IMG/VR virus record: IMGVR_UViG_3300017727_000197
Span: 1 to 21,861 of that record
Strand: one strand, 5' to 3'
DNA: 21,861 nt
Source of the DNA: a virus
Shown one piece after another: positions 7,279 through 21,861 of this stretch (its first letter is position 1; each line of letters begins with the position of its first letter). The notes under the pieces were generated by a model. The model ran no database searches, was not told where the DNA came from, and saw only the letters and a list, made by a program, of their open reading frames with translations. Position numbers and translations under genes: made by a program.

Positions 7279-8814
7279 ATGGAAATGGAACTAGGTACAG
7301 TAGCTAAACGCTACAGCCAATTGGAAGGTGAACGTGATACCTTTCTTGAACGAGGGCGAGAGGCAGCTAGACTAACTATCCCTACTCTGTTACCAGAGGA
7401 AGGACACAATTCGTCCTCAACATACGCTACACCCTATCAAGGTATTGGTGCTAGGGGTGTAAACAATTTAGCATCAAAATTATTGATGGCTCTCCTACCA
7501 CCTAACACACCTTTCTTTCGCCTCACTATTGATGACTTTGACTTGCAAGAACTTGCAGGTGACAATCGTGGTCAGGTAGAAGAAGGGTTAGCACGTATTG
7601 AACGTGCAGCCTTGGCAGAAATTGAAGGTAAAGCAGTTCGTGTTCCTGTGTTTGAAGCACTAAAGCTTCTCATTGTATCAGGTAATGCGCTTTTATTTAA
7701 AGACCTAAAGGGACAGATGCGTGTGTATCGTCCTGATCGTTACGTAGTTAAGCGTGACATGATGGGGAACGTGCTAGAAATTATTACAAAAGAATCAGTA
7801 GCGGGTATTATGTTGCCAGAGGCAGCACAAGCTGTCATTACAGCAGGTGATACCCCAATGAAGAACCACCACCTATATACCAAGGTTTGCCGTACTAAAA
7901 AAGGATGGGAAACTGAACAAGAGGTAGCAGGTATATCCATTGAGGAGTCCAAGGGTACTTATAAAGTAGACCGCAATCCTTTTATCCCATTACGGTTTAT
8001 CCGTATTGATGGTGAGGACTATGGGCGTGGCTTCATTGAAGAATATTTAGGAGACTTACGTAGTCTTGAAGCACTAACTAAGGCTATTGTTGAAGGCAGT
8101 GCCGCATCAGCAAAGCTACTATTCTTGGTACGTCCTAATGGTACAACCAAGACTAATCAGCTATCGAAAGCACCTAATGGTGCGTTTGTTACTGGTGATG
8201 TTAATGATGTCTCAGCTATGCAAGTACAGAAGTCGGGTGATTTTCGTGTTGCATTAGAAACTATGCGTATGATTAACGACAGATTGGCTGCGGCCTTCCT
8301 GTTGAATAGTGCTGTACAGCGTAATGCTGAACGTGTCACAGCCGAAGAAGTACGTTTTATGGCACAAGAACTAGAGACTGCGCTTGGGGGCGTGTACTCA
8401 GTTCTATCACAAGAGTTTCAGTTGCCTATGATTAACTTGCTGTTGACCTCATTAGAGACACAGGGCAAGATGCCTAAGATGCCAAGGGACAGTGTTAAAC
8501 CTACTGTCGTAACTGGTATTGAGGCTTTAGGGCGTGGGCAAGACCTTAACAAACTTGCTGCTTTCTTACAGTATCTTCAGCCACTTGGTCCTGAAGTTAT
8601 CCAAAGTGAGATGAACCTTGGTGATTACATAGACAGACTTGCAGCATCTCTTGGCATTGATACGTCAGGACTTATTAAGTCAGACGAACAGAAGCAACAA
8701 GAACAGATGATGCAGCAGCAGATGATGCAACAACAAATGTTAGAACAAACAGCAGCAGGTATGGCACAGGGTGCTGCACCACAGCTAGCTAAAGGCGCAG
8801 TAGAAACGGAGTAA
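7279..8814 (+). CDS. Portal / head-tail connector protein, T7 gp8-like
   Basis: This 511-aa protein should form the dodecameric ring through which DNA is packaged and ejected. It aligns along its length with T7 gp8: TPYQGIGARGVNNLASKLL near residue 52, FEALKLLIVSGNALL (about 125-139), IDGEDYGRGFIEEYLGDLRS, and LLNSAVQRNAERVTAEEVRF. The segment ETALGGVYSVLSQEFQLP and GIEALGRGQDLNKL also match. The C terminus has a Gln/Met-rich segment built of near-identical five-residue units (from residue 476), also present in looser form in T7. AAGGA precedes ATG 7279, and the scaffold gene follows after 3 nt. Confidence 0.97.
   Translation: MEMELGTVAKRYSQLEGERDTFLERGREAARLTIPTLLPEEGHNSSSTYATPYQGIGARGVNNLASKLLMALLPPNTPFFRLTIDDFDLQELAGDNRGQVEEGLARIERAALAEIEGKAVRVPVFEALKLLIVSGNALLFKDLKGQMRVYRPDRYVVKRDMMGNVLEIITKESVAGIMLPEAAQAVITAGDTPMKNHHLYTKVCRTKKGWETEQEVAGISIEESKGTYKVDRNPFIPLRFIRIDGEDYGRGFIEEYLGDLRSLEALTKAIVEGSAASAKLLFLVRPNGTTKTNQLSKAPNGAFVTGDVNDVSAMQVQKSGDFRVALETMRMINDRLAAAFLLNSAVQRNAERVTAEEVRFMAQELETALGGVYSVLSQEFQLPMINLLLTSLETQGKMPKMPRDSVKPTVVTGIEALGRGQDLNKLAAFLQYLQPLGPEVIQSEMNLGDYIDRLAASLGIDTSGLIKSDEQKQQEQMMQQQMMQQQMLEQTAAGMAQGAAPQLAKGAVETE
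8704..8748 (+). repeat. Three 15-nt tandem units in the 3' end of the portal gene
   Basis: Three consecutive 15-nt units (8704-8718, 8719-8733, 8734-8748) encode QMMQQ, QMMQQ and QMLEQ. The first two differ only in CAG versus CAA at two codons and the third is more diverged. T7 gp8 has a similar Gln/Met-rich tail, so the repeat probably reflects a tolerated helical tail that changes length by slippage. Confidence 0.7.
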
Positions 8815-8817
8815 CAC

Positions 8818-9582
8818 ATGGCAGATGCCGTAAACACTTATCAAGAAGAACCAGCAGAGTCACGACAACATGTTGACGCTATGCTGGCTAAGGTTGAGGG
8901 TACTCAAGTAGACCCTGAACGTCCAGAATGGTTGCCTGAAAAGTTCAAATCACCAGAGGATATGGCTAAAGCCTACTCTGCACTAGAAGGTAAACTAGGT
9001 AGTAATTCAGAAGCTGAGGCTCAACAAGAAGCAGACAGTCAGACAGAAGATGTTAGTCAGACAGCAAACGAGGTTTCTGAGTTACTTGATGAAAGAGGAC
9101 TAGACTTTGACGTATTCCAACAGGAGTATGCAGAGAATGGAACTCTATCAGACGAAGCATACCAAGCCCTAGAGGAAGCTGGCTTTCCAGAAGCTATGGT
9201 TGACTCATGGATTGAAGGTCAGAACGCTGTTGCGGCTCAGATGACTTCTAATATGCAGTCCCTTGTTGGGGGTGCTGAGGAATACTCTGCTATGGTACAG
9301 TGGGCAGCAGACAATCTTCCTGAGGCAGAGGTTGATGCTTTTAATGCTACAATGGAAACGCAAGATGCAAACCTAATTCAGTTTGCCATCCAAGGTCTAA
9401 GCGCAAGGTATCGAACTAATGCGGAACCTTCCCTACTTCAAGGTGGGACAGGTGAAGTGTCAGGTGGGAAGTTCAATAGCAATGCAGAATTAACTGCTGC
9501 TATGCGTGACCCCAAATACGCGCAAGACCCTGCCTACAGGCAAGCAGTCGCTGATAAGTTGGCTCGTTCCAGCCTGTTCTAA
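8818..9582 (+). CDS. Capsid assembly scaffolding protein, T7 gp9-like
   Basis: This 254-aa acidic, low-complexity helical protein lies directly between portal and major capsid genes, where T7-like phages encode the scaffold that shapes the procapsid and leaves before maturation. Near the N terminus, PERPEWLPEKFKSPEDMAKAYSALEGKLG (about residues 38-66) is the motif typical of T7-type scaffolds. A Glu/Gln/Ser-rich stretch follows, then helical segments, and a C-terminal region with KFNSNAELTAAMRDPKYAQDPAYRQAVADKL that is expected to contact the capsid. T7 gp9 is somewhat longer (about 307 aa). GGAG sits 7 nt before ATG 8818. Confidence 0.93.
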   Translation: MADAVNTYQEEPAESRQHVDAMLAKVEGTQVDPERPEWLPEKFKSPEDMAKAYSALEGKLGSNSEAEAQQEADSQTEDVSQTANEVSELLDERGLDFDVFQQEYAENGTLSDEAYQALEEAGFPEAMVDSWIEGQNAVAAQMTSNMQSLVGGAEEYSAMVQWAADNLPEAEVDAFNATMETQDANLIQFAIQGLSARYRTNAEPSLLQGGTGEVSGGKFNSNAELTAAMRDPKYAQDPAYRQAVADKLARSSLF

Positions 9583-9710
9583 CATTGTTGCATGGGGTTG
9601 GGGGAGAAATCCCCCTTCCTTCTAGTTACATTACGGTGTGCCTAGAAGGGATCACATCCCAAGACCTTACAGGAATGTGCAATCCGCACTGTAGGGTGTA
9701 GAAAGGATTG

Positions 9711-9738
9711 TTAACTCTAACTAACACGAAGCTAACAT
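9711..9738 (+). promoter_or_regulatory. Weak candidate sigma70-type promoter upstream of the capsid gene
   Basis: TTAACT (9711-9716) and TAACAT (9733-9738) each match four of six consensus positions with a 16-nt spacer. The capsid gene needs high expression and no phage polymerase gene is visible, so a host-type promoter here is reasonable. The match is poor, though, and the AT-rich sequence could produce it by chance. Confidence 0.15.
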
Positions 9739-9831
9739 AACAAACGATTACCCCTGACCCCTTGCGAGGGACAATCTTGGAGAAAGGATGTAGTGTAATG
9801 CAGAGTGTACTTAACTCAACATTATACTCAC

Positions 9832-9838
9832 TAAGGAG
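9832..9838 (+). promoter_or_regulatory. Strong Shine-Dalgarno site of the capsid gene
   Basis: TAAGGAG lies 9 nt before ATG 9848, in an unpaired AT-rich stretch. It is among the best ribosome sites in the window, as expected for the most abundant virion protein, and it fixes the capsid start. Confidence 0.85.
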
Positions 9839-9847
9839 TAATTACAA

Positions 9848-10963
9848 ATGGCACAAGCTGCTTCAAATCCGGCCTATAGCGTAAGCTTCCAAGGCCAGAA
9901 TAACAATACAGGTGACGTACGTGACCTATTTCTCAAGCTGTATGCAGGGGAAGTCCTGACAGCCTTTGAGGAAAAGAAAGTCCTTATGGACAAAGTACGC
10001 ACTCGTACAATCTCAAAAGGTAAGTCTGCATCATTCCCAATGACAGGCCGTGCATCTGCTGAATACTTGACCCCCGGAAACGAAATTACTGGTGGACAAT
10101 TACGTGCAGGTGAACGCATCGTCACAATTGATGACTTGCTAATCTCAAGCCAGTTCATTGCTAACATTGATGAAGCCATCAACCACTACGATGTACGTTC
10201 AATCTACTCAAAGGAAGCTGGTATCGCACTAGCTAATGAGGCAGACAAGAACGTAGCACGTATGCTTGTGAAGGCTGCTTTGTCTACCAACGCAACTCGC
10301 GCTGCTGGTCTTGTTCAAGACTACAAAGCCTTTACCGAAGAAGACTTTACAGATAACGTCAACATTGGTGCAGCTACCGCTGACTCAACAGATGCTGCCA
10401 AGCTTGCTAAAGCTATCTTTGACGCACGTAAAGAGATGGAAGTCAAGAACGTACCTACTGATGGTGCTGTTGTTGTACTTGCACCAGATCAGTACTACGC
10501 TCTCTTGGACGTAACTGATGGTAACAAGCTTGTCTACATGAACAAGGACTTTGGTGGTAATGGTTCAATTGCATCAGGCACAGTACCTTCAATTGCTGGG
10601 ATGCCTGTCATCATGTCAAACCACGCCAAAGTATCTAACCTGTATGTGAACTTCACCACAAGCGATGCTAACGAAGGTAAGACATCTGACAATGCACCCC
10701 TAGCAAACACTGCTGGTTCTGGACGCACAACACACTATGACCTACCGACTGCTGCTGTAGACGGTGCTGACATGGTGGCACTTGCTTCTAAGTTCCGTGG
10801 CTTTGTCTTCACACCAGACGCTGTTGCTACTGTCAAGCTTCTTGACCTTGGCATGGAGTCTGAATACCAAATTAATCGTCAAGGCACATTGATGGTGGCA
10901 AAATACGCAATGGGGCATAACGTCCTGCGTCCAGCCGCCTGTATCGGTCTGTCTGAGGTTTAA
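9848..10963 (+). CDS. Major capsid protein, T7 gp10A-like
   Basis: This 371-aa HK97-fold shell protein is slightly longer than T7 gp10A (345 aa). Recognisable segments include LFLKLYAGEVLTAFEEKKV (about 28-46), TISKGKSASFPMTGRASAEYLTPGNE, and ERIVTIDDLLISSQFIANIDEA. The C-terminal region with GFVFTPDAVATVKLLDLGMESEYQ matches too. The start at 9848 is set by a strong TAAGGAG. A long structured leader precedes the gene and an intrinsic terminator follows closely, so its transcript is probably the main late message. I see no sign of a T7-style 10B frameshift extension: the gene ends in tandem-stop sequence TAATAA and the terminator begins within 10 nt. Confidence 0.96.
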   Translation: MAQAASNPAYSVSFQGQNNNTGDVRDLFLKLYAGEVLTAFEEKKVLMDKVRTRTISKGKSASFPMTGRASAEYLTPGNEITGGQLRAGERIVTIDDLLISSQFIANIDEAINHYDVRSIYSKEAGIALANEADKNVARMLVKAALSTNATRAAGLVQDYKAFTEEDFTDNVNIGAATADSTDAAKLAKAIFDARKEMEVKNVPTDGAVVVLAPDQYYALLDVTDGNKLVYMNKDFGGNGSIASGTVPSIAGMPVIMSNHAKVSNLYVNFTTSDANEGKTSDNAPLANTAGSGRTTHYDLPTAAVDGADMVALASKFRGFVFTPDAVATVKLLDLGMESEYQINRQGTLMVAKYAMGHNVLRPAACIGLSEV

Positions 10964-10970
10964 TAAACTT

Positions 10971-11001
10971 GGGGGTAGCTTAACGGCTACTCCCTTTTTT
11001 T
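10971..11001 (+). terminator. Intrinsic terminator after the capsid gene
   Basis: GGGGGTAGC (10971-10979) pairs with GCTACTCCC (10986-10994), a 9-bp stem with one G-U pair and a 6-nt loop. Seven T residues follow immediately (10995-11001). It occupies the place of T7 T-phi, between capsid and tail genes. The next gene starts 14 nt later, leaving no room for a separate promoter, so termination is probably partial and sets the ratio of capsid to tail transcripts. Confidence 0.93.
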
Positions 11002-18997: not shown

Positions 18998-21861
18998 ATG
19001 GCTGAGATTTCTAAGGAAACACAAGAGAAGTTGGGATTTGGTAAACCTTTACCTAGTCCCTTTGTCTCACGTATGAGTGAGAACTCTCTTGAGGCTATGA
19101 AACGTCAAGAAGAAATCTCTAACGAACAAACAGATTTCTCTACGTTGTATAGCAAAGCAAGAGAAGAAGAACACATTGATGCTATTGCATCTCGTAATCT
19201 GTATAGATTCTCAGCCAATCCTTACAATCCTGTAACAGAGATTACTACTGAAATGTCCGATGCCCTTACTAAAGGGTTGACAGACGAAAGAGCCATCGAA
19301 GATATATTTGATGCAGCTAGGTCTGAGAGCCTTGACTACGCTATGACAATGGCAGAAGACTATCGCAAGACTGATAAGAACAGAACAGAACTAGCTGCTG
19401 CTGGTTGGAGAGGCATAGGGGCTACAATCTTAGCTGCTATGACTGACCCTACTGAGGTGGTAGGTATCATTGGAACCACGGCTGCTGTATCAGCTATCAG
19501 TGGTCCTGCTGCGCCTGTTACTGGTACAGTGGCGGCTGCTACTGGTACTGCTGTACAAGCAGGTAGGTCACTAAAGAAGGGTTACAATGTATACAAAGCC
19601 CTAAAGATAGGTGCTGGTTTAGGTGCAGCAGAGGCAGCAGTGTTTGAAGGTATACGTGCTTCAATGAAGTACGATATTGATGGCGGTGATGTCATGCTTG
19701 CTGGACTATTTGGTGCAGGTCTACAAGGCGGTGTAAGTGCTGCTGGTATGACCTTTGCTAAACGAGCCAAGGTACATCAGCTAGCACAGCGTAGTGCGCT
19801 TGGTGAGGTTCTTACGCCCGATGAACAGGCTTTCTTAAAGGGTAACTCAGGTGAAGAACTGACTAACAAAATAATTGCACAAGAAGCTGCAACAGGTGAC
19901 TTTGCTGGACTAGGTACTAAGTCTATCAATGAGATTACAGCAGAACAAGCACGTACTGTATCCTTCCAGAGAGGCAGCAATGCCTTTACCAAGGCCGTTA
20001 GACTAGATGCTTTACGTAGTTTAGTATCTCCTTTTGTTAGAGCCAAGCAATCATCCAACGGATTCATACGTCTTGGCGCAGATAAGCTAGGGTTGAATAG
20101 TACAGGTAACAAATCAGGTGAGGTGGTGAATCCATCTGCATCTGAGATCAAAGCTTACTTAGAAAGTAAATACCGTACAGGCTTTGCACGTAGTTTAACA
20201 GTAAACCGTAAGGCTTGGATGGCAAGTAGTGGTGGTACAGTACAAGACTTTAACGTACTGGTATCAAAAGCTATGCGTGATCCTAACGCTATTGTGCCTA
20301 CAGAGGTGCGTAAGGTAGCAGACGATGTACATAAGCAGCAAAGAGAACTAGGAAACTTAGCTATTAAGAATAATGTAGCAGGTTTTACTACAGGTATCTT
20401 AGACAACCACCCTAACTATCTACCTAGACTTTTTAGTGATAATGGTATTACTAAGATACGTGCTAAGTTTGGCGATGACAACGTAGCTGTAACAGACTTG
20501 GTTGAGAAAGCTATACGTTCTGGGCAACCTGATATTGAAGATGCAGTACGTAGGGCATTGACTACTGCCAAAGGTAAACGTGTTACTCAAAAAGCAATCA
20601 ATACTTACATTCGTAAGATGGCTACTGGTTATGCTAAGACAGTAATGTCACGGCCTTTTAAGAAGGGTGGTAACGTAGGTGGACTAGACCTATCAGTAGA
20701 AGATTTAACTGCTGCTTTGAAAAAAGAAGAACTAGACGAAGATGTTATCATTGGAGTACTAGAAGCAGTTACTAAGTCTAAGGGATTACGCGCACATAAA
20801 CGCGCACAACCTCGCCTAGTACTAGATGAAAATGTAACGATCAACGCTAAAAACGCTAATGGCGATATAGAAGAACTGTCTTTTTCTGAGTTACTAGAGA
20901 ACGACATCGAAAACTTACACAATGCCTACGTATTCCAGATGTCAAGTGGTATCGGATTAGCACGTAATGGTATTAACACTAATGCTGCTGGTTCTTCCTT
21001 TGATGATTTTTTAGCTAAGATTAAGCAAGAGAATGTTGAACAAGGTATAACAGGTACTGAAGCAGAAGAAAAAGCTTTACAGTATATGTATGATGGCATC
21101 ACTGGTCAGCATGTATTTAAGCAGGATGTTAGTGATGGCGTAAGACGCTTTAACAGACGTATACGTGAGTACAGTTTTATTACTAACATGGGCATGTCAG
21201 GTATGGCAGCTATGATGGAGTTGACTAACTCTCTGTTAGAGTACTCACTACCAGTCTTACTGCGTACCATGCCTCAGTATCGTAAGCTATATAGTAAAGC
21301 AGCCAATGGTCAGCTTGATGATAAGTTGTTACGTGAACTAGAAGTAATGACAGGACTAGGTGGTGATGTAGTTACGTCCAAGTTTAATCGTGCCTCTCGT
21401 TTTGAGGGTGGCGATATGGATGCAGCTATGATGCCTGAGGCTGTAAATTTCCATGACGAACTACTTGGTAGGGCTAGAGAGAAAGTCTCTATACTCTCAG
21501 GTTTGTCAGGCGTGACAATGAGCCTACGCCGTATGTCTATGCTAAACTATTCTTCACAGTGGACTAGGGCAGCAGCACAAGGCAAGCCACCATTCTCAAA
21601 GATCAAGATGGAACAGCTTGGTATTGATGAGGATGTAGCATCAGCTATCTTTGCTAATATTAAGAAACACGCTACTACAAGAAACAACGGCAAGGTTTTA
21701 CAGTCTTTAAACATAGATAAGTGGGATATTAAATCTGCTAAGGGTGTTTCAGGTGAGGATGTGAGAGAAGCTTTTTCCATCTCTGTTTATAGAGAAGCTA
21801 CTCAGAACGTACAGGAAATGAACTTAGGTTCTGTGAATGGTACACTGCGTAGTGAATGGGG
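18998..21861 (+). CDS. Internal virion (ejection) protein D, T7 gp16-like (3' truncated by window edge)
   Basis: An open frame runs from ATG 18998 to the end of the window, at least 954 codons without a stop, so the protein is a giant ejection protein like T7 gp16 (1318 aa). It begins MAEISKETQEKLGFGKPLPS, with no transglycosylase-like Glu/Gly motif at the N terminus, unlike T7 gp16. Residues of about 130-195 are Gly/Ala/Ile-rich (GWRGIGATILAAM, VVGIIGTTAAVSAISG) and could enter the membrane. A second Gly/Ala-rich hydrophobic segment (DVMLAGLFGAGLQGG) lies near 230-250. Further on are NHPNYLPRLFSDNG, a motif style seen in other phage internal proteins, and LRRMSMLNYSSQWTRAA. The start is 4 nt after the gp15-like stop with only a weak ribosome site (AAGGATAACATA), suggesting coupled translation. 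Confidence 0.88.
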   Translation, partial: MAEISKETQEKLGFGKPLPSPFVSRMSENSLEAMKRQEEISNEQTDFSTLYSKAREEEHIDAIASRNLYRFSANPYNPVTEITTEMSDALTKGLTDERAIEDIFDAARSESLDYAMTMAEDYRKTDKNRTELAAAGWRGIGATILAAMTDPTEVVGIIGTTAAVSAISGPAAPVTGTVAAATGTAVQAGRSLKKGYNVYKALKIGAGLGAAEAAVFEGIRASMKYDIDGGDVMLAGLFGAGLQGGVSAAGMTFAKRAKVHQLAQRSALGEVLTPDEQAFLKGNSGEELTNKIIAQEAATGDFAGLGTKSINEITAEQARTVSFQRGSNAFTKAVRLDALRSLVSPFVRAKQSSNGFIRLGADKLGLNSTGNKSGEVVNPSASEIKAYLESKYRTGFARSLTVNRKAWMASSGGTVQDFNVLVSKAMRDPNAIVPTEVRKVADDVHKQQRELGNLAIKNNVAGFTTGILDNHPNYLPRLFSDNGITKIRAKFGDDNVAVTDLVEKAIRSGQPDIEDAVRRALTTAKGKRVTQKAINTYIRKMATGYAKTVMSRPFKKGGNVGGLDLSVEDLTAALKKEELDEDVIIGVLEAVTKSKGLRAHKRAQPRLVLDENVTINAKNANGDIEELSFSELLENDIENLHNAYVFQMSSGIGLARNGINTNAAGSSFDDFLAKIKQENVEQGITGTEAEEKALQYMYDGITGQHVFKQDVSDGVRRFNRRIREYSFITNMGMSGMAAMMELTNSLLEYSLPVLLRTMPQYRKLYSKAANGQLDDKLLRELEVMTGLGGDVVTSKFNRASRFEGGDMDAAMMPEAVNFHDELLGRAREKVSILSGLSGVTMSLRRMSMLNYSSQWTRAAAQGKPPFSKIKMEQLGIDEDVASAIFANIKKHATTRNNGKVLQSLNIDKWDIKSAKGVSGEDVREAFSISVYREATQNVQEMNLGSVNGTLRSEW

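Follow-up and report, generated by a model that had tools for sequence, protein, structure and literature searches.

A covarying hairpin precedes the capsid gene in T7-like phages of very different bacteria and may act in the capsid mRNA leader

Results

The capsid gene is preceded by a structured, non-coding leader

The window that we analyzed is a partial IMG/VR virus record of 21,861 bases, with a T7-like gene order of helicase, DNA polymerase, exonuclease, ribonucleotide reductase, portal, scaffold, capsid, and tail tubes (Table 1). Between the end of the scaffold gene (9582) and the start of the capsid gene (9848) the plus strand has no ORF of at least 50 amino acids, which bears out an earlier note on this DNA that had described a 265-nt non-coding leader (9583–9847); the inverted repeats that it named, H1–H6, are indeed present. 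The leader as a whole was predicted to fold at −83.3 kcal/mol, versus −65.7 ± 5.5 kcal/mol for shuffled sequences (z −3.22; 0 of 200 shuffles as low).

Table 1. Features of the capsid unit and its leader, in window coordinates.
Feature	Position	Strand	Basis or remark
Portal gene	7279–8814
Scaffold gene	8818–9582
H1, G+C-rich hairpin resembling a degenerate terminator, pyrimidine tail weak	9600–9615	+
H2 hairpin, lineage-specific, covarying	9618–9625/9642–9649	+	47 related leaders
H3 hairpin, lineage-specific, two Gs in common with H2	9648–9660	+
Optional 61-nt insertion with H4 and the 5′ arm of H6	9661–9721	+	47 related leaders
Possible anti-Shine-Dalgarno strand AUUACCCCU, lineage-specific	9747–9755	+	complementary to 9834–9842, one mismatch
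Whole 29-nt motif	9752–9780	+	outer pairs, minimum-energy nesting
Outer pairs	C9752–G9780, C9753–G9779	+
Pyrimidine 2×2 loop	9754–9755/9777–9778	+
Core hairpin GA-C-CCCU-UGCG-AGGG-ACAA-UC (= H5)	9756–9776	+	covariation, covariance model, fold of 9749–9783
P1b lower stem (2–3 bp in the motif)	9756–9757/9775–9776	+
1×4 internal loop C/AYAA	C9758/A9771–A9774	+
P2 stem, 4 bp	9759–9762/9767–9770	+
YNMG (UNCG-type) tetraloop	9763–9766	+
Shine-Dalgarno AAGGAG of the capsid gene	9833–9838	+	sequence
Major capsid gene (T7 gp10 type)	9848–10963	+	phrog_267, 1.2e-78
Strong intrinsic terminator 3′ of the capsid gene	10971–10994	+	position as Tphi in T7

The upstream hairpins were examined among 47 related leaders. 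H1 has the GAAA loop previously ascribed to it, followed by TTCCTT instead of a U-run; its stem is retained in the window's lineage with variable loops, and some related contigs (e.g., L094) have a full U-tract after it. H2 covaries, with pair 9622–9645 being CG in 31 leaders, TA in 11, and AT in 5, and pair 9625–9642 being GC in 19 and AT in 28, and H3-type hairpins are likewise retained. Judged from these alignments, H1, H2, and H3 are real but limited to the window's own lineage. In seven contigs (L034, L039, L096, L109, L112, L136, and L184) H1/part of H2 is swapped for another hairpin, GGGCAGGTGTCAG...CTGTCCT, which looks as if phages exchange leader modules.

The earlier note had proposed that H2 and H3 are mutually exclusive and form a switch. 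The two hairpins do share two Gs, but neither was retained without the other in any relative. Exclusivity would therefore cost at most 1–2 end pairs, and with both hairpins coexisting in relatives we saw no sign of the proposed switch. A larger domain closed by H6 did not hold up either: its 5′ arm (9704–9711) sits in the 61-nt segment, which is present in 5 of the 47 relatives and absent from ~90% of close relatives, and H6 would unpair the conserved element because its 3′ arm (9771–9778) covers the conserved ACAAUC. The 61-nt segment itself is not a significant copy of nearby sequence, and we rejected the idea that it is a decayed copy of the motif described below (99 of 1000 shuffles align equally well). 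The decisive element is instead H5, the small hairpin that the proposed H6 domain would enclose.

A compact hairpin with a YNMG tetraloop

The motif nests a tetraloop-capped stem above an asymmetric internal loop, a short lower stem, a pyrimidine loop, and two outer pairs. Its 1×4 internal loop C/AYAA is nearly invariant across members, and the tetraloops that we observed, TGCG, TACG, TGAG, TAAG, CGAG, and in P-SSP7 CAAG (in RNA, UGCG, UACG, UGAG, UAAG, CGAG, and CAAG), all fall within the YNMG class. Familiar hairpins with YNMG/UNCG loops include the intercistronic CUUCGG hairpins of T4 and stem-loop D of enteroviruses; the motif differs in having closing pairs other than C-G, a conserved C/AYAA loop and lower stem, and a fixed capsid context. 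Among 108 position combinations, the outer pair (−2,24) was the most over-paired (77% versus 57% expected), whereas a long outer helix extending past two pairs was rejected, being not above permutation.

The unconstrained minimum-energy fold of window positions 9749–9783 was the conserved structure, and the corresponding folds of Syn5, P-SSP7, and CRP-118 had the same nesting or a close form. Taken alone, the window hairpin did not exceed shuffled sequence in predicted stability (z 0.3), which means that its value does not lie in stability as such. Tested as an intrinsic terminator, the core lacked a U-tract, being followed by ACAAUCUUGG, and H1 was the only terminator-like hairpin of the leader.

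The stem is conserved as pairing

The most direct evidence for selection on the RNA came from a scan in which three of the four stem pairs were left unconstrained. It returned 123 matches, of which 108 were complementary and represented 12 kinds of stem, with complementarity at the three free pairs expected by chance in ~5%; the 15 non-complementary matches, mostly one common coding-like sequence far from leaders, served as an internal control. Near-identical leaders bore different stems. Related pelagiphages lacking the exact core carried, in the same frame, CACC-TGCG-GGTG (HTVC031P and HTVC142P) and CTAC-TGCG-GTAG (HTVC021P), and the roseophage CRP-118 carried CCCT-TACG-AGGG. All 166 of the 166 unique complementary matches in the loci compared stood 5′ of a T7-type capsid gene.

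An alignment of 78 sequences (A2) gave a concordant picture, with 98.6% of cells paired versus 69.4% after shuffling, all six tested pairs covarying, and a covariation of 0.86 versus 0.25 for shuffled and ≤0.19 for slid controls, these shuffles and permutations ignoring kinship among the sequences. Because upper-stem pairing was a selection criterion for A2, its 100% pairing there is not independent evidence, as the free-stem scan is. The lower stem was not selected in this way: pair 2/20 (columns 6/24), where the search did not demand pairing, was AU in 44 sequences and GC in 28, with none broken, and columns 5/25 were GC in 57, AU in 5, UA in 3, GU in 1, and unpaired in 6.

The hairpin thus exists and is selected as an RNA structure, occurs singly in each genome, and is tied to the capsid gene. 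It has the covarying structure and the constant place ahead of a single gene family that would be expected of a cis-regulatory leader RNA. Covariation among such divergent phages lends strong support to the suggestion that a structured RNA rather than a bare promoter lies ahead of the capsid gene; the absence of covariation or conserved stems among relatives had been named as grounds for abandoning it, and what we found was a conserved stem that covaries.

The hairpin recurs upstream of divergent capsid genes

A distant DNA search with the leader matched only eight Pelagibacter phage records, all of which contained the 25 letters TGACCCCTTGCGAGGGACAATCTTG (window 9755–9779). This match was intergenic in every record and lay 58–63 nt 5′ of the capsid start in the five that we inspected, even though the capsid proteins of those phages were just 41–43% identical. 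The 19-letter core occurred in at least 120 IMG/VR contigs and, at up to 3 mismatches, in exactly one copy in each of 14 genomes (~40 kb). Hairpins lay mostly 50–110 nt 5′ of the capsid start in phages of Pelagibacter, Roseobacter, Prochlorococcus, Synechococcus, Rhizobium, and Bordetella, and sampled motif-bearing phages had capsid identities of 31–58%.

We ran a covariance model (R1) on 80 loci picked by capsid protein similarity alone, several of which had trained the model, and obtained a match at the expected place and strand in 66 of them, with five weak matches (E 0.2–0.8, R1 E-values being rough) and two stray ones. In cyanophage-type capsid loci, a more independent set because few related sequences were used in training, R1 matched 71 of 71. 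Named carriers are Syn5, P-SSP7, P-SCSP1d, P-SCSP2, CRP-114, CRP-118, CRP-227, RHEph21, Bordetella phage BB8, HTVC025P, HTVC119P, and HTVC200P, and weak, apically enlarged forms occur in Pasto (E 0.03) and LUZ100 (E 0.24). R1 matched none of 80 T7-type loci, so the hairpin is not universally needed, and it was not found in Vibrio phage Rostov-1, a Limnohabitans phage, ProddE, or Lo5R7ANS. We saw no convincing copy other than those preceding capsid genes. By these comparisons, related viruses numbering in the hundreds, whose bacterial hosts differ widely, keep the hairpin at the same place.

A host-derived sequence, such as an attachment site or an rRNA or tRNA mimic, was rejected, with the exact core occurring in just 2 contigs of the whole genome collection and R1 absent from 288 of 289 alphaproteobacterial genomes, its sole match being a phage contig. 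The two contigs with exact cores, one from a Poseidoniales single cell and one from a Rhodobiaceae MAG (L203 and L204, both ~33 kb), are probably phage contigs binned with their host and may hint at hosts. A known RNA family was likewise rejected: Rfam 15 had no match in the window's leader, its core included (E up to 5), none to the core of 13 further leaders (E up to 2), and none at the gathering threshold in two more (L207 and L209). The families that a 224-motif paper published in 2017 would be expected among those of Rfam. The literature searched, which was covered in part, yielded no account of the motif, and the motif looks like a not yet described family of structured leader elements in the mRNAs of T7-like phages.

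Surroundings of the hairpin in the leader

Between the hairpin and the ATG, the RNA had less predicted structure than coding RNA did (mean z −0.63 versus −1.42), consistent with a ribosome-binding region left open downstream of a 5′ hairpin. In the window, the strand just 5′ of the hairpin could pair with the Shine-Dalgarno region, as it could in three other leaders (L318, L328, and L380). Across 75 leaders the mean duplex between the flank and the ribosome-binding site was −3.65 versus −3.19 ± 0.15 when permuted (0 of 300 as low), with the signal carried by ~ten lineages; general sequestration of the ribosome-binding site was rejected, such pairing being predicted in some lineages only.

In LUZ100 (OP329100.1), the late capsid promoter phi7 maps to ~20586–20635 and the hairpin to 21080–21129, ~450–500 nt downstream, which should place the hairpin within the capsid transcript; terminator T16 follows the capsid gene. 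The LUZ100 capsid unit is among the closest known systems, with a mapped late promoter upstream, a terminator after the capsid gene, and a leader that holds the motif in diverged form, its differences being the enlarged apical stem and the weak model match. We found the motif nowhere mentioned in the LUZ100 paper. One annotated LUZ100 terminator, T14 (20769–20868), implies an RNA 3′ end at ~20829, adjoining the 5′ end of a tRNA-Asn at 20831, and may reflect an RNase P cut rather than a terminator; a second has its 3′ end at ~21030, ~50 nt 5′ of the motif. No intrinsic terminator was predicted at either end.

A tRNA-Asn lies in the capsid leaders of both LUZ100 and RHEph21, and other tRNAs in those of two further loci (L390/L391). 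Syn5 (L438) and P-SSP7 (L439) have a tRNA-like mini-structure, composed of a 5-bp acceptor, a T-arm with a 7-nt loop, and one more small hairpin, that ends 12 nt 5′ of the core (motif at 19894 and 1191, respectively). ARAGORN called no tRNA in Syn5, and a tRNA-like processing element in all leaders was rejected, such structures being found in 3 of 83 leaders (0.6 expected).

Two T7-like phages of Rhizobium have a second hairpin in the same intergenic region, separate from and upstream of the motif, that resembles abiF RNA (RF03085): RHEph21 (L343, 1050–1085, 38.0 bits against a gathering threshold of 37) and Pasto (L348, 1253–1288, 30.3 bits). These hairpins stand after the genes upstream of the capsid gene and are followed by TCTTT; the window and the core motif had no abiF match. 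Since the AbiF toxin has abiF RNAs as its antitoxins (PMC12373285), these hairpins might conceivably be decoys carried by the phage.

Discussion

We propose that the 29-nt sense-strand hairpin in the capsid 5′ leader probably sets or raises capsid output in cis, through mRNA stability, translation initiation, or both. The processing or stability element that the earlier note had considered is plausible. The hairpin would be part of the capsid message and would act after transcription: a protein or the ribosome would recognize the compact hairpin in the 5′ leader, and this recognition would raise or set the output of capsid from a message whose ribosome-binding region downstream is otherwise mostly open. 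In some lineages, including that of the window, pairing of the strand just 5′ of the hairpin with the Shine-Dalgarno sequence could add translational control. No candidate binding partner was found. A more specific version, which we hold only tentatively and consider rather doubtful, is that the hairpin is a phage-wide operator of translation or stability to which a late phage protein (capsid, scaffold, or polymerase) would bind, giving feedback on capsid output.

The main rival is an RNA processing site, because in some hairpin-bearing phages a tRNA, a tRNA-like structure, or a terminator-like hairpin lies farther 5′ in the leader. The hairpin, together with such elements, would then mark a cut that gives the capsid mRNA a separate 5′ end. 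The tRNAs in capsid leaders, the acceptor/T-arm-like structure at a constant distance from the motif in Syn5 and P-SSP7, and the two LUZ100 3′ ends near the tRNA and the motif would all fit such a cut, as would the known Syn5 promoter sequence, which occurs only far from the Syn5 capsid gene. We nevertheless consider processing unlikely, given the scarcity of tRNA-like structures among the leaders and a 4-bp stem that is short for RNase III.

It is improbable, in our estimation, that the nascent hairpin alters the elongating polymerase, by pausing or by put/nut-like antitermination, and so promotes read-through of the capsid gene and terminator. The strong terminator 3′ of the capsid gene, the terminator-like hairpins often found 5′ of it, and the fixed location and single copy of the hairpin speak for such a transcription-level element, but the motif is unlike put, boxA, and boxB and has no U-tract after it; moreover, we know of no RNA-mediated antitermination for single-subunit phage polymerases, which also counts against it. 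We see only a slight chance of a trans-acting or virion-related RNA, that is, a decoy, regulatory, or assembly RNA incidentally transcribed with the capsid gene. Such an RNA would suit a hairpin with no known partner and the abiF-like antitoxin hairpin in the same leader of two Rhizobium phages, yet the tight spacing to the capsid start and the lack of convincing copies apart from capsid genes argue otherwise.

A double-stranded DNA element, namely a promoter of the phi10 type from which the phage RNA polymerase would start late transcription, was suggested at first by the 25 nt that the window shares exactly with Pelagibacter phages and by phi10 holding this place in T7, but is very improbable and largely refuted, for the stem letters vary freely in matched pairs so that pairing rather than duplex sequence is conserved, no repeated consensus was found, each of the 14 genomes has one copy where promoters repeat (LUZ100 has a set of eight), and the promoter mapped in LUZ100 differs in sequence from the motif and lies hundreds of bases 5′ of it. 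A T7-promoter-like string that we noticed by eye, CTAACACGAAGCTAACATAAC (9721–9741), was also rejected, being single in the window and unrepeated in the genomes of four relatives.

Returning to a role in the capsid message, one of the closest parallels is T7 itself, in which phi10, the gene 10 leader hairpin, and Tphi resemble the arrangement in the window in their scaffold–capsid position, capsid-leader hairpin, and closing terminator. T7-type leaders differ in having no YNMG/AYAA motif and in that the 5′ end of the capsid message is made by an adjacent promoter.

The T7-like phages that infect SAR11 and picocyanobacteria rank with the most abundant marine viruses, and to our knowledge little is known of how they control capsid output. 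If the operator reading is true, feedback of a kind comparable to the coat-protein operators of RNA phages would operate in T7-like phages outside the T7 subfamily, and the operator would predate the split between the phages of SAR11, cyanobacteria, and soil bacteria. As a candidate new RNA family, the hairpin offers a way to recognize capsid leaders in metagenomes by their structure, and LUZ100, Syn5, P-SSP7, and HTVC019P provide culturable systems for its study. A single-copy hairpin that is shared by phages of alphaproteobacteria, betaproteobacteria, and cyanobacteria, and always stands 5′ of the capsid gene, is a precise handle on capsid output.
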